From: an uncultured Aequorivita sp.
GTDB taxonomy: Bacteria; Bacteroidota; Bacteroidia; Flavobacteriales; Flavobacteriaceae
Reading direction: 5' to 3'
Length of the DNA stretch: 57,761 nucleotides
NCBI GenBank assembly: GCA_937125455.1
Contig: CAKZLK010000039.1
Coordinates: 1-57,761 of the forward strand
Below the pieces are notes generated by a model, which was not told the origin of the DNA, searched no databases, and worked only from the letters and a program-made list of their open reading frames with translations. Of the stretch, positions 3,651 through 16,222 are shown piece by piece. The first letter of the stretch is position 1. Each line of letters starts with the position of its first letter. The position numbers and the translations under genes are program-made.

Positions 3651-4427
3651 ATGCTGAAACAAATACCAAACATCATCACCTCCTTAAACATTCTATGCGG
3701 ATGTGTTGCTATACTTTTTGCAATTTCAGGCGATTTGATAACTGCTTCGTTTTTTGTTTTTCTGGGAATTTTCTTCGATTTTTTTGATGGCCTTGCAGCT
3801 CGTTTGTTGAACGCGCAGAGTGAAGTTGGGCTTCAGTTGGACTCCTTGGCTGATGTTATTACCAGTGGAGTAGCACCTGGTATAATAATGTACCAAATGT
3901 TGAATTTATCTTATTTCCATCAAATGCAGACCCTTACCGAAACTTTTTCCTTAGATGGATGGAATGTTGGTTTCAAGAACTATATGCCTTTAATTGGACT
4001 TTTGGTTGTAATAGCTTCTGCCTATCGCTTGGCGAAATTTAATGTAGACGCGCGACAAACCTCTGGTTTTATTGGACTTCCCACACCGGCAAACACGCTT
4101 TTGATTTTAAGCTTGCCCTTAATTTTGCAATTTCAATATTCTGAATTTGCGGAAAGCATTATTCTCAACCGATGGTTTTTGATAGGATTTACCTTGCTGA
4201 GTTGCATATTGCTGAATGCCGAAATCCCTCTTTTCGCATTAAAATTTAAAACATGGGATTTTAAAAGCAACGCAGTACGATATGTATTTTTAATACTTTG
4301 TATTGTGCTTTTGGCACTGCTGAAGTTTTTGGCAATCCCTTTTATTATTCTGCTTTATATAGTGCTTTCCCTGTTTAACCACAAAGACCGCCAAGAAGAC
4401 ACAAAGAGCACAAAGACGTCTGCGTGA
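3651..4427 (+). CDS. pssA: CDP-diacylglycerol--serine O-phosphatidyltransferase
   Basis: This integral membrane enzyme joins CDP-diacylglycerol and serine to make phosphatidylserine, the precursor of phosphatidylethanolamine. The CDP-alcohol phosphotransferase signature D(x2)DG(x2)AR(x8)G(x3)D(x3)D is complete at D43, D46-G47, A50-R51, G60, D64 and D68. About six to eight hydrophobic segments follow. The length (258 residues) includes an unusual hydrophilic tail, HKDRQEDTKSTKTSA, encoded by the CACAAAG-type repeat at 4377-4417. The natural C-terminus probably ended just before this at LSLF or soon after. The gene is divergent from the PorV-like gene and is followed by the broken GxxExxY cassette. 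Confidence 0.93.
   Translation: MLKQIPNIITSLNILCGCVAILFAISGDLITASFFVFLGIFFDFFDGLAARLLNAQSEVGLQLDSLADVITSGVAPGIIMYQMLNLSYFHQMQTLTETFSLDGWNVGFKNYMPLIGLLVVIASAYRLAKFNVDARQTSGFIGLPTPANTLLILSLPLILQFQYSEFAESIILNRWFLIGFTLLSCILLNAEIPLFALKFKTWDFKSNAVRYVFLILCIVLLALLKFLAIPFIILLYIVLSLFNHKDRQEDTKSTKTSA
4377..4417 (+). repeat. CACAAAG-type repeat R1, overlapping the pssA 3' end
   Basis: The sequence starts AACCACAAAGACCGCC and continues with GACACAAAGAGCACAAAGACG. It lies at the left edge of the broken GxxExxY unit, in the opposite orientation to the matching repeats at 4863-4902 and 4946-4988. It supplies the last codons of pssA. Confidence 0.7.
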
Positions 4428-4470
4428 ACATTTAAATTTGTTTTAAATCAGGTTGTTAAATTTAATTGTA

Positions 4471-4851
4471 ATGACTGAAAACCAAATAGCAAATAAGATT
4501 ATAGGCTGTGCTTTGGAAGTTCATAAGGCACTTGGTCCTGGATTGTTGGAGTCTGCTTACCAAGAATGTCTTTTTTATAAACTAACAAAGGAAGGTCTGT
4601 CAGTTGCGAAACAAAAATCTATGCCCCTCATATTTGAATAAGTACAACTAGAAACTGGCTGTCGAATTGATTTATTGGTTGAAAATAAAGTGGTTATCGA
4701 AATAAAAAGCGTGGAAATATTGAACAATGTTCATTTAGCTCAAACACTTACCTATATGAGGCTCGGTGGTTTTAAACTTGGGCTACTTATAAATTTTAAT
4801 GTAAGTTTATTAAAGCACGGTATTAAAAGAGTGATCAACGGAGAGTTGTGA
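4471..4851 (+). pseudogene. GxxExxY protein, broken by one in-frame stop codon
   Basis: Translation from ATG 4471 gives MTENQIANKI, then GPGLLESAYQE (the GxxExxY motif), up to a TAA at 4639-4641. Beyond the stop the same frame continues as VQLETGCRIDLLVENK, then VVIEIKSVE, and ends at a TGA at 4849-4851. Total length is 381 bases, identical to the intact copy at 5812-6192, with no insertion or deletion. The stop sits where the intact copy has Asp57, so one base change (probably GAA to TAA) inactivated it. The family has a PD-(D/E)XK nuclease-like fold (Asp, then E-x-K); its function is unknown. An ORF-only reading would give just a 62-residue fragment starting at 4453. Confidence 0.85.
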
Positions 4852-4862
4852 ATTGAAAACCA

Positions 4863-4902
4863 TAGTGAACTTTGTGCAACCCTTTTGTCCTTTGTGTTTT
4901 AA
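4863..4902 (-). repeat. CACAAAG-type repeat R2, right edge of broken GxxExxY unit
   Basis: On the minus strand it reads AAACACAAAGGACAAAAG, then GGTTGCACAAAGTTCAC. It begins 12 bases after the pseudogene stop and is inverted relative to R1 at 4377-4417, so the gene is bracketed by imperfect inverted repeats. Confidence 0.7.
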
Positions 4903-4945
4903 AAGTCAGGCCCATAAAAACACCCTAAAGCATAAAATAGGTAAG

Positions 4946-4988
4946 TGCTTAGTGAACTTTGTGAAACCCTTGTGTCCTTTGTGGTTAA
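4946..4988 (-). repeat. CACAAAG-type repeat R3, second copy beside R2
   Basis: On the minus strand it reads TTTAACCACAAAGGACAC, then AAGGGTTTCACAAAGTTCAC. It is a direct repeat of R2, about 83 bases away, and closest to the general consensus. It lies 16 bases beyond the lptB stop codon. Confidence 0.7.
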
Positions 4989-5004
4989 AAACACCACATT
5001 TTTA

Positions 5005-5745
5005 TTAAAACTCCAACTTCTTCTTCCGAAGTTCAAAGTTCTGGCCAAGATATACTTTCCGAACCATCTCGTCTGCAGCAAGTTCTTCTGGAATACCGTG
5101 TTTTAAAATACTTCCTTCGAACATTAAATAAGTTCTGTCAGTAATAGCTAGCGTTTCCTGTACGTTGTGATCGGTAATAAGAATACCGATATTTTTATTT
5201 TTAAGCTGTGCCACAATCCGCTGAATATCTTCAACCGCCACGGGATCAACTCCTGCAAAAGGTTCATCAAGAAGAATGAAATGTGGGTCGGTTGCCAAAG
5301 CACGGGCAATTTCGGTTCTTCGTCTTTCACCACCACTTAATAGATCACCACGGTTTTTGCGGATATGGCCCAAACCAAATTCCTCGATAAGCGATTCCAT
5401 TTTTGCACGCTGCTCTTTTTTGGAAAGCTTGGTCAGTTGTAAAACACTCAAAATATTGTCTTCCACACTCAATTTTCTAAACACGGAGGCCTCCTGCGCC
5501 AAATAACCAATACCGTTTTGAGCACGTTTGTACATAGGATATTTGGTGATTTCTGTTCCTTCTAAAAAGATATTGCCACCGTTTGGTTTTATCAACCCAA
5601 CTATCATATAAAAGGAGGTGGTTTTACCCGCACCGTTCGGGCCGAGCAAACCAACAATTTCACCTTGGTTTACTTCTATAGATATGCCCTTTACAACCTT
5701 TCGGCCTTTATAGGACTTCATTAGATTTTCGGCTTTTAGCTTCAT
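5005..5745 (-). CDS. lptB: LPS export ABC transporter ATP-binding protein
   Basis: LptB is the cytoplasmic ATPase that powers extraction of LPS from the inner membrane by LptFG for transfer along the Lpt bridge. The 246-residue protein has Walker A GPNGAGKT (35-42), Q-loop Gln84, signature LSGGE (136-140), Walker B ILLDEP (157-162) and a His switch in ITDHNV. The C-terminal extension ending in RKKKLEF is typical for the family. It is on the same strand as kdsD, tatC and the AhpD-like gene, a run common in flavobacteria. Here that run is interrupted by a GxxExxY cassette at 5784-6239, and another cassette follows lptB. Confidence 0.95.
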
Positions 5746-5783
5746 CCTGATATTTCTTTTAAACTTGGCTTATGATATAATTT

Positions 5784-5810
5784 CACCACAGAGACACTAA
5801 GGTCACAGAG
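5784..5810 (+). repeat. CACAAAG-type repeat R4, left edge of intact GxxExxY unit
   Basis: Reads CACCACAGAGACACTAAG, then GTCACAGAG, and ends two bases before the gene's stop codon. It is inverted relative to R5 at 6208-6239. Confidence 0.65.
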
Positions 5811-5811
5811 T

Positions 5812-6192
5812 TTATAGCTCGCCGTTTATTATTCTTTTTAGACCATTAATCACCTTTATTTCATTAAAGTTTATTAAGAGTCCGAGTTTTAAATCTTTCA
5901 ATTTTAAATAAGTCAATATTTGGGCAGTATGTATAGGGGCCAATGCATCAACAGATTTTATTTCGATAATAACCTTGTTCTCCACAATCATATCAATACG
6001 GTAGCCGGCATTAAGCTTAACGTCCTTATAAATGACAGGTAGTGGAACTTGTTGCTTTACTTCCAACCCCATTAAATTTAACTCGTGGCCTAAACAGATT
6101 TCATAAGTGCTTTCTAACAAGCCAGGGCCTAGTTGCTTATGAACCTCAATACTCGCACCTATTATTTTGGAAGAAATTTCGTTTTCGGTCAT
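5812..6192 (-). CDS. GxxExxY protein (PD-(D/E)XK nuclease-like)
   Basis: The 126-residue protein carries the naming motif GLLESTY (G24, E27, Y30) and, later, YRIDMIVENK followed by IIEIKS. D67 with E77-x-K79 matches the core of a PD-(D/E)XK nuclease fold. The biological function of the family is not known; members are often present in several copies per genome. This copy begins MTENEISSKI, just like the broken copy 960 bases away, and the two are the same length. It sits between lptB and the AhpD-like gene, bounded by inverted repeats R4 and R5, which suggests it moved in as a unit. Nothing in the neighbouring pathway suggests it works with LptB. Confidence 0.88.
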   Translation of the reverse strand: MTENEISSKIIGASIEVHKQLGPGLLESTYEICLGHELNLMGLEVKQQVPLPVIYKDVKLNAGYRIDMIVENKVIIEIKSVDALAPIHTAQILTYLKLKDLKLGLLINFNEIKVINGLKRIINGEL

Positions 6193-6207
6193 TATTTAAT
6201 TTTCTTT

Positions 6208-6239
6208 CTTCGTGCCCTCTGTGCCTTTGTGGTTAAAAT
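6208..6239 (-). repeat. CACAAAG-type repeat R5, right edge of intact GxxExxY unit
   Basis: On the minus strand it reads ATTTTAACCACAAAGGCA, then CAGAGGGCACGAAG, and lies 15 bases upstream of the gene's start. It pairs imperfectly with R4 as a terminal inverted repeat. Confidence 0.65.
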
Positions 6240-14246: not shown

Positions 14247-15657
14247 TTGCTTTCAGCCCAATGGCAGTTCCTTTTTTCAACATAAACTCTTTTGCGGCTT
14301 CATATTCATTGGGAATTTCACCTTCTAGGATTGCTTCTTTTATGGCATCTTTTATTATGCCTATTTCCCGTGAGGGTTTTAGGTTGAAGGTTTTCATAAT
14401 TTCTTCACCGGTAACTGGGGGTTGAAAATTGCGAACTTGATCGCGTTCTTCAACTTCCACAATTTTATCACGTACCAATTGAAAATTAGCGTGATACTTT
14501 TTAAATTTTTTTGGATTTTTTGTGGTAATGTCGGCTTCACAAAGTGTCATTAAATCTTCCACATTTTCGCCTGCGTCAAAAATCAAACGGCGTACTGCAC
14601 TATCAGTTACATCACTCGCCAAAACAATGGGGCGGGAGCTCATCAATACCATTTTTTGGACGAATTTCATCTTCTCATTCAATGGCATTTTTAGACGTTT
14701 GAAAAGTTTATAGACCATTTTTGCGCCCACAAATTCATGTGTGTGAAAGGTCCAGCCCAATTTCTTATCAAATCGTTTTGTCGGTGCTTTTCCAATATCA
14801 TGAAGTAATGCAGCCCAACGTAACCATAAATCATCGGTAGCTTTTGAAATGTTATCCACCACCTCTAGCGTGTGCCAAAAATTGTCTTTATGGGTTTGTC
14901 CTTCTTTTTCGTCAATGCCTTGCAGTGCAACCAATTCTGGTAAAATAAAGGGAAGTAAGCCTGTTTTGTGTAAAAGGGCAAATCCTTTTGAGGGAACCTC
15001 CGAAAGTAAAATTTTGTTCAGTTCGTCAACAATTCGTTCTTTGGTAATGATTTTTATGCGCTCGGCATTTCTAGTGATTGCTTCCAACGAATCTTTTTCA
15101 ATGGTAAAATCCAATTGGGTAGCAAACCGAATAGCCCGAAGCATCCGCAATGGGTCATCACTATAGGTGATATCTGGATTTAATGGAGTCTGAATTATTT
15201 TCTTTTGAAGATCCTCAATACCATTAAAGGGATCGAGCAACTCTCCAAAATTTTCATCGCTCAAGTTTAGAGCCAAAGCATTTATTGTAAAGTCTCTTCG
15301 GTTTTGGTCGTCCTCCAAGGTGCCATTTTCAACGGCGGGATTTCTACTTTCCTCGGAATAGGATTCTTTTCGTGCGCCAACAAATTCAAGTTCTATTCCA
15401 CCGCTTTTCAGCATTGCGGTGCCGTAGGTTTTAAAAATAGAGACTTTAGGCTTTCCGGGAAGTAATTTTGAAACCTCCTGAGCCAGATCAATCCCGCTAC
15501 CTACCGCAACGATATCGATATCTTTGGCTTCGCCGCGTTTCAATAAAAAGTCACGAACATAGCCTCCTATTACATAGCTTTCTATATTCAGATTTTTAGA
15601 GGCTTTTGAGATGCTCCTAAATATTGGATTTTGAAGTGCTGTTGGGTATTGTGGCAT
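14239..15657 (-). CDS. cca: CCA tRNA nucleotidyltransferase with HD domain
   Basis: This class II nucleotidyltransferase builds or repairs the CCA end of tRNAs. In the 472-residue protein, GGYVRD (31-36) and the metal-binding DIDIV (D46, D48) mark the catalytic palm, followed by the RRDFTINALAL motif. The central head/neck region contains DPLRMLRAIRFATQL. An HD domain (WAALLHDIGK, around residue 270) is fused at the C-terminal half, as in many bacterial enzymes that also hydrolyse 2',3'-cyclic phosphates. It overlaps ctaA by 8 bases and starts 4 bases after the tsaC stop. The HD activity itself is an inference. Confidence 0.93.
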   Translation of the reverse strand: MPQYPTALQNPIFRSISKASKNLNIESYVIGGYVRDFLLKRGEAKDIDIVAVGSGIDLAQEVSKLLPGKPKVSIFKTYGTAMLKSGGIELEFVGARKESYSEESRNPAVENGTLEDDQNRRDFTINALALNLSDENFGELLDPFNGIEDLQKKIIQTPLNPDITYSDDPLRMLRAIRFATQLDFTIEKDSLEAITRNAERIKIITKERIVDELNKILLSEVPSKGFALLHKTGLLPFILPELVALQGIDEKEGQTHKDNFWHTLEVVDNISKATDDLWLRWAALLHDIGKAPTKRFDKKLGWTFHTHEFVGAKMVYKLFKRLKMPLNEKMKFVQKMVLMSSRPIVLASDVTDSAVRRLIFDAGENVEDLMTLCEADITTKNPKKFKKYHANFQLVRDKIVEVEERDQVRNFQPPVTGEEIMKTFNLKPSREIGIIKDAIKEAILEGEIPNEYEAAKEFMLKKGTAIGLKAIE

Positions 15658-15661
15658 TTTT

Positions 15662-16222
15662 TTACTGTCTAATAACCTTTACGGAACCATCATTTTTCAA
15701 TTTAATGATAGCCGAAGGTTTTGCAGATTTTCTTTCGCGATGCAAATTTACAACATAGTCCACGCCCTTCAAAATTAAAGGGTCTATTTCGGCATAGCTT
15801 TGCGGCGTTTTTTCACCAGAAATATTTGCCGAAGTGGAAACGAGGGGCCTTCGAAATTTCTGTATCAATTTTTTACAAAATTCATCTTTTGTAACCCGAA
15901 TTGCGAGCGAATTGTCTGCTGCTATAATATTTTCAGCTACACGGATTGGATCGTCGTATATTATTGTAGTTGGCTTCTTTGCATATTTTAAAATATCGTA
16001 AGCTACCTCAGGTACGTTTTCAACATATTCATTCAACATTTTAAAATCGTTAACCAAGCAGATCAACGATTTTTCGTCGCTTCTTTTCTTGAGTTCAAAA
16101 ACCTTGTCTACGGCATCAGGATTAGTAGCATCACAGCCTATACCCCAAACGGTGTCTGTAGGGTAGAGAATGAGCCCGCCTCTTTTAAGGATTGTTAATG
16201 CATTTTCAATTTCAGTTTTCAT
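15662..16222 (-). CDS. tsaC: L-threonylcarbamoyladenylate synthase, TsaC type
   Basis: This enzyme makes threonylcarbamoyl-AMP from threonine, bicarbonate and ATP for the universal t6A37 modification of ANN-decoding tRNAs. The 186-residue protein has the YrdC fold. YPTDTVWGIGC is present near residue 20, and the catalytic-type KxR motif is at K45-x-R47, with K51 and S52 following. VSTSANISG is at the C-terminal side. It leads the run tsaC-cca-ctaA, so two tRNA maturation genes are adjacent. A second family member at 56606-57226 lacks the KxR motif, so this one is the likely t6A enzyme. Confidence 0.92.
   Translation of the reverse strand: MKTEIENALTILKRGGLILYPTDTVWGIGCDATNPDAVDKVFELKKRSDEKSLICLVNDFKMLNEYVENVPEVAYDILKYAKKPTTIIYDDPIRVAENIIAADNSLAIRVTKDEFCKKLIQKFRRPLVSTSANISGEKTPQSYAEIDPLILKGVDYVVNLHRERKSAKPSAIIKLKNDGSVKVIRQ

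Follow-up and report, generated by a model that had tools for sequence, protein, structure and literature searches.

GxxExxY genes between inverted heptamer arrays in Aequorivita and distant bacteria as candidate coding parts of REPtron-like units

Introduction

Among described systems, the closest to the locus considered here are the REPtrons and REPINs with their RAYT (REP-associated tyrosine transposase; REP, repetitive extragenic palindrome), and the TIRtrons. In three reports (PMC8266576, PMC3116915, PMC3733652), a small nuclease gene is framed by short repeats, the repeats occur elsewhere as intergenic inverted doublets, and enzyme and repeat co-evolve. Here we describe a comparable arrangement for GxxExxY genes, two copies of which lie on a 57,761-nucleotide contig of an uncultured Aequorivita sp. 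(CAKZLK010000039.1, hereafter the window), part of a 3.73-Mb genome assembly in 63 contigs (GCA_937125455.1). Protein look-ups give Aequorivita as the genus of close relatives of copy B, one of the two. Like a RAYT gene, GxxExxY is framed by repeats that recur at other places in the genome, in many cases as inverted doublets, and the GxxExxY protein and its heptamer repeat co-diversify. Unlike RAYT, which is an HUH/Y1 (TnpA-REP) tyrosine transposase with a GTAG (or CGTC)-tagged palindrome as its repeat, GxxExxY is a PD-(D/E)XK protein, and its repeats are heptamer arrays with mostly TTWAC ends. RAYT/REP is the nearest working analogue, with membership failing on the enzyme.

Two further comparisons are instructive. 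The intervening sequences (IVS) of rRNA are described as small open reading frames (ORFs) whose ends are complementary and are cleaved by RNase III (PMC4990558). Like 23S rRNA IVS, which carry an S23p/four-helix-bundle ORF, GxxExxY elements enclose a small ORF in terminal inverted repeats, but they differ in the ORF, in the repeat words, in lying at protein-gene junctions and in having no G.U bias between arms. Homing endonuclease genes and insertion sequences (IS) likewise offer a nuclease gene, defined ends and both occupied and unoccupied sites, whereas GxxExxY lies outside host genes, has no target duplication and lacks a transposase domain. Within the literature covered, from which subscription papers were mostly absent, no description was found of GxxExxY/PDDEXK_3 paired with such arrays, nor of an owner for the arrays; a passage of PMC8934634 names GxxExxY in passing, beside a reverse-transcriptase gene, and says nothing of repeats around it.

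Five observations carry the comparison with REPtrons: inverted framing of the gene, a match between protein clade and heptamer, variable occupancy of sites, gene-less hairpins at the same junctions, and an absence of target duplication. Taken as a whole, the mechanism that they suggest, in which GxxExxY genes would be the coding part of REPtron-like units, is about evenly poised between right and wrong.

The two GxxExxY copies of the window

Copy A (4471..4851, forward strand) and copy B (5812..6192, reverse strand) are both 381-bp frames starting with MTEN, and they flank lptB (5005..5745, reverse strand), as a preliminary description had it. That description counted two genes, of which one stands. 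Copy B is intact (126 amino acids) and belongs to the GxxExxY family, with 151.2 bits against TIGR04256 (cut-off 35) and 147 bits against PF13366, while copy A is a pseudogene with an in-frame TAA at 4639-4641, each half of the broken frame still matching PF13366. Beyond GxxExxY and PDDEXK_3, no family passes its cut-off for copy B, and no HUH/Y1 or other transposase domain was found in it.

All five inverted repeats previously proposed around the copies were located. R1 (4374..4415, forward strand), the upstream arm of copy A, overlaps the end of pssA (reading frame 3651..4427), so that the final codons of that frame (4377..4427, forward strand) are composed of repeat DNA and PssA ends in a 16-residue tail, NHKDRQEDTKSTKTSA, encoded by R1. 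Downstream of copy A lie an inner arm, R2 (4863..4904, reverse strand), and an outer arm, R3 (4950..4991, reverse strand), which are one arm directly duplicated, 87 nt apart. Copy B has three heptamers in each arm, R4 downstream (about 5785..5810, forward strand) and R5 upstream (about 6208..6236, reverse strand). The 57.8-kb window contains 34 CACDRAG heptamers, of which 14 fall within the 355 bp of the copy A and copy B flanks, as do all six of its same-strand heptamer pairs at 7-12 nt spacing; this clustering is not due to chance.

The two copies do not form a single cassette around lptB, as had been supposed: they belong to different GxxExxY subclades, and each is found without the other in congeners. 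Nor does copy A interrupt the kdsD-tatC-ahpD-lptB run, since it sits past the end of that run, between the convergent pssA and lptB. The source genome holds four GxxExxY copies in all. The arms of the copy on contig C12 almost abut its start and stop codons, and the copy on contig C40 is frameshifted, yet it too is framed by arrays.

Inverted framing beyond the window

GxxExxY is a large family, with at least 8000 genes (8000 of 8000 scored candidates matched). A match was found in 25 of 39 genomes searched, the source genome included, and many copies across these genomes were broken or absent. Two sets of loci were assembled. The near set comprises 76 copies, together with their flanking DNA, taken from Aequorivita and from three further genera within the order. 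The distant set comes from a scan of species genomes that confirmed at least 570 loci, of which the 80 best were kept, and is biased to relatives of the query; two Aequorivita loci were dropped, leaving 78.

A motif-free test, the local alignment of 120 bp upstream with the reverse complement of 120 bp downstream, indicates that the framing is systematic. In the near set the inverted score averaged 18.7 (73 of 76 copies with both flanks), against 10.1 for 200 control ORFs from the same loci and 10.3 for shuffled flanks; 18 of the 73 copies exceeded the controls' 99th percentile and none exceeded their maximum of 30. For the distant set the mean was 18.4 (76 of 78 loci having both flanks), whereas 129 control ORFs averaged 10.3 (p 1.4e-14) and mismatched flank pairs 11.4, with scores above 14 at 49 of 76 loci and 7 of 129 controls. 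Heptamers of the form CRCDRAG point inward on both sides of 41/76 near and 42/78 distant copies, as compared with 1/138 control ORFs, and outward on both sides of 6/76 and 17/78; at least one heptamer occurs on either flank of 51/76 near copies, 73/78 distant copies and 46/138 control ORFs. The repeats are therefore not random relative to GxxExxY genes. The repeat word first proposed, AACCACAAAG, is present as one variant only, with CGCAGAG, CACGAAT, CACGGAT or TCCGAAT in other copies.

By record titles, the distant set covers Bacteroidota, Planctomycetota, Verrucomicrobia, Cyanobacteria, Acidobacteria, Chloroflexota, Neomarinimicrobiota, Sumerlaeota, several proteobacterial classes and a Methanothrix bin; since these are mostly metagenome bins, single records may be misbinned. 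In most cases the gene is closely preceded by a co-oriented gene, at 58 of 72 distant loci (background 96/132) and 68 of 72 near loci (orthologues counted repeatedly). Relatives were found in 8 of 72,556 plasmid records and in none of 50,697 phage records, and among the plasmid copies one each from Bacteroides, Bernardetia and Gemmatirosa have arrays of the same kind.

Co-variation of protein and heptamer

The PF13366 match and a conserved D...ExK place GxxExxY in the PD-(D/E)XK superfamily, in agreement with the protein type first suggested. Residues D66, E76, K78 and Y94 are invariant across 34 sequences and Q90 is nearly so, the latter part corresponding to what we take to be a QxxxY motif. 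An AlphaFold model of copy B (pLDDT, the predicted local distance difference test, 94) finds its best PDB matches in SSO0001, a Cas4, at E 4.6e-3 and, lower, in lambda exonuclease. The likeness to Cas4, RecB and lambda exonuclease thus lies in D...ExK and QxxxY, while the structural match is weak and GxxExxY is half the length. The model also resembles viral PD-(D/E)XK proteins, a named example matching at E 2.6e-7, and a sequence search for solved relatives gave a single chance match (E 0.62).

A supported split divides a tree of 141 proteins into two groups. One has 118 rows with heptamers that almost always end in AG; the other has 23 rows, Fusobacteria and Treponema copies included, and its labelled heptamers end in AT (CACGAAT, CACGGAT, TCCGAAT). 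Three AT-labelled rows sit in the larger group. Many forks are unresolved because the alignment has few columns. On a thinned tree of 103 rows, 91 of them labelled (80 AG, 11 AT), the AG/AT label requires 3 changes, as against a mean of 10.6 and a minimum of 7 in shuffles (0 of 500 reach 3). Within the AG group, the CAC/CGC label requires 13 changes against 21.6 in shuffles (0 of 500). Enzyme and repeat therefore co-diversify.

Empty, filled and re-used junctions

If the elements had been fixed in place since before the divergence of these relatives, sites without the gene would be absent; such sites exist, as congeners have gene-free junctions. The sites flanking lptB were occupied variably in 26 loci, with GxxExxY at site A in 10 and at site B in 6, but their intergenic DNA has diverged so far that exact junctions are unreadable, and two other junctions were used for that reason. 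The first is site C, empty in the window (15655..15664, reverse strand), where the TAA (15662-15664) of a Sua5/YrdC gene is followed by AAAA and the ATG (15655-15657) of a PolyA_pol/HD gene. Congeners have a CACGAAT-type GxxExxY element at this site. In a sample of 27 loci, 12 of them picked because they bear the gene, 23 junctions were complete: the gap is 6-7 in four (G000, G042, G001, G019), 473-761 bp and filled in 14, and 78-230 bp in five, some with hairpins of other repeat families. Twelve of the 14 filled genomes have a GxxExxY match, some broken, the other two (G039, G040) lying outside that search. In several filled loci (L130, L143, L136 and others), the GTG of the right arm can be read as occupying the expected start codon of the PolyA_pol/HD gene. 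Because empty and filled alleles do not share their first codons, the empty ones may be original, restored or imported by recombination.

A 397-genome scan of the family was too dispersed and led only to a survey of a second junction, between genes that we take from their sequences to be batD and batE. The sample is the best 30 loci among 299 genomes, the genus Flavobacterium being assigned from the record of the query. The gene is present in 5 of 30 loci; in 11 the gap is at most 27 nt (one with an arm remnant), and in 14 it is 41-123 nt, a class that includes gene-less hairpins of CACAAAG, CACGAATTA and CGGAT type beside the same stop codon. The C12 junction gives a similar picture over 23 loci: the full element is found in G000 and G004, an internally deleted element retaining both arms in G011, and hairpins of another family in G012, G022 and G009, while inspection by eye found no element or hairpin in G041, G019, G003, G018, G042 and G006.

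Gene-less hairpins

Heptamer arrays also occur without the gene. An exact dimer pattern matches 183 times across 18 Aequorivita genomes, with between 0 and 40 matches per genome, and its reversed control matches 3 times. Some clusters form a compact outward hairpin, in which two arrays are joined by GGT-loop-ACC; at least eight such pairs have 43-45 nt offsets, and the form accounts for 8 of 28 distinct clusters inspected. An inward form on contig C40 of the source genome (about 2862-2946) has a folding z of -3.56. These counts bear on whether chance or AT-rich sequence could produce the arrays. A few control ORFs do match the best element scores (maximum 30 and 34), and dimer patterns with two mismatches are mostly noise (CACAAAG, 83 matches against 51 reversed; CCACGAAT, 10 against 7), but the control ORFs, shuffles and mismatched pairs described above, together with the excess of exact dimers, exclude this explanation for practical purposes.

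Dimer count rises with the number of CACxxAG-type genes, which were counted by hand from genome matches and the tree (rho 0.50, p 0.035, 18 genomes; without G001, rho 0.70, p 0.002). G001, a single-contig genome with 99% completeness, carries more dimers (40) than any other of the 18 genomes and has no GxxExxY match. This genome, and the gene-less hairpins that exceed gene copies in several others, would be expected if another enzyme, such as an IS or RAYT transposase, moved the arrays in trans with GxxExxY merely lying between them. Such a passenger role is nonetheless quite unlikely: the arrays track the GxxExxY tree, target duplications of 4 nt or more are absent, and loci of Y1 transposases, the only transposase family tested, lack arrays (30 fetched, 28 tried, 25 parsed). 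As the owner of the arrays, RAYT/IS200 was rejected on the same loci, which have at most one heptamer each in the 25 parsed.

Mobility and a possible mechanism

Of 156 elements examined, 78 have arrays found on both sides. Element ends were analysed in these, with a risk of misplacement where an array extends further. Most outer ends read TTWAC...GTWAA, prolonging the inverted repeat. Exact target duplications of at least 4 nt occur in none of the 78 and of 3 nt in two. Among 22 genomes with two or more copies, the best within-genome identity is 78.5%, and orthologous copies have ratios of nonsynonymous to synonymous divergence (dN/dS) of 0.04-0.07 in five groups, dS being near saturation in three. 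The gene is under purifying selection at old sites. The small transposing cassette that the preliminary description envisaged, a self-transposing IS-like unit, is thereby rejected, since target duplications and recent copies are lacking and the family is near-absent from plasmids and absent from phage records.

Low dN/dS at fixed sites, the lack of recent copies and the placement of genes mostly behind a same-strand gene would also suit a nuclease with a host function in repair or recombination, the arrays being binding or regulatory sites spread by recombination or slippage and not by the protein. This we consider unlikely, as it leaves unexplained both the recurrence of the same inverted frame at unrelated junctions and the presence, at a single junction, of gene-less hairpins from several families, and many GxxExxY copies are broken or absent.

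The REPtron-like mechanism starts from a protein of some 125 residues, with a PD-(D/E)XK core of RecB/Cas4 type, that is encoded between inverted arrays of a degenerate heptamer, approximately C-R-C-D-R-A-G in one protein clade and T-ending in the other. The protein may recognise arrays of its own kind and cut or nick DNA there, after which repair might place new copies of the arms at gene junctions, in most cases as gene-less hairpins. Movement of the gene would be rare: it would stay at old sites, mostly behind a same-strand gene, and occasionally break as copy A has done. More tentatively, GxxExxY proteins could be repeat-associated nucleases that arrived at the RAYT/REP plan independently, as its second invention. 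A PD-(D/E)XK nuclease lacking any transposase domain would then spread hairpins of its own heptamer arrays to junctions in many phyla, with no target duplication left behind; this is possible, if somewhat doubtful.

Several points weigh against the REPtron-like mechanism. Recognition, cutting and copying of arrays by the protein are its inferred steps. The likeness to Cas4 is weak, the PDB search with the copy B model returning nothing at E 0.001 or better. The gene-bearing form has no recent copies in the 22 genomes compared, and the dimer-rich G001 speaks against strict dependence of dimers on the gene. Among the distant loci, 27 of 76 have an inverted score not above 14; direct flank similarity is also elevated (means 15.2 near and 16.0 distant) because arms are often repeated on one side; and some array classes were defined after the flanks had been viewed.

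If the mechanism is correct, an unrelated nuclease can take the place of HUH transposases in maintaining REP-like populations, and a large, so far unassigned gene family would gain a testable function. Short arrays of CACAGAG and CACGAAT type occur in many genomes; with a cognate enzyme, their origin could be put to the test, and repeat-made gene ends such as the PssA tail would be explained.

Other small genes between inverted flanks

The plan of a small ORF within inverted arrays is wider than GxxExxY. TIGR02436 four-helix-bundle genes of the genus (L188-L217), with 11 matches in the source genome, are framed by inverted short-period arrays with a mean score of 20.6 (29 of 30 loci scored), against 14.0 for mismatched flank pairs. 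Their own control ORFs number only two (p 0.06), and 191 ORFs from GxxExxY loci with the same flank length average 11.0. The words differ (GTGAGTTTGTGA, CAACCATCAACC, CAGCTTT and others), and CRCDRAK heptamers occur at 0.10 inward and 0.52 outward per locus. Because of these different words, and because Y1 loci have at most one heptamer, the heptamer itself goes with GxxExxY.

Since TIGR02436 is an IVS-type ORF, its framing lends some support to an RNA-level element, with arms that would pair once transcribed, a stem that RNase III would cleave, and an ORF merely carried along with that stem; the resemblance to IVS outlined in the Introduction and the co-directional placement behind genes point the same way. 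In 104 elements, however, arm mismatches are 172 of G.U type and 223 of A.C type, and the sites read are protein-gene junctions, not rRNA. Without a G.U excess, RNA pairing does not seem to keep the arms alike. Selection for an RNA stem was accordingly rejected, and an IVS-like nature of the GxxExxY elements is quite unlikely.

A few single loci may be added. Several Y1 transposase genes, that of L454 among them, possess inverted flanks of a different kind, with scores of 25-36 in some. In a Sphingomonas plasmid record (L231), fabD and fabG enclose a GxxExxY gene of the same orientation, and a CGCGAAG-type array was seen only upstream of it; in a Fusobacteria plasmid record (L232) the gene is flanked by direct, not inverted, copies of a stretch bearing AATCCGTGTACC.

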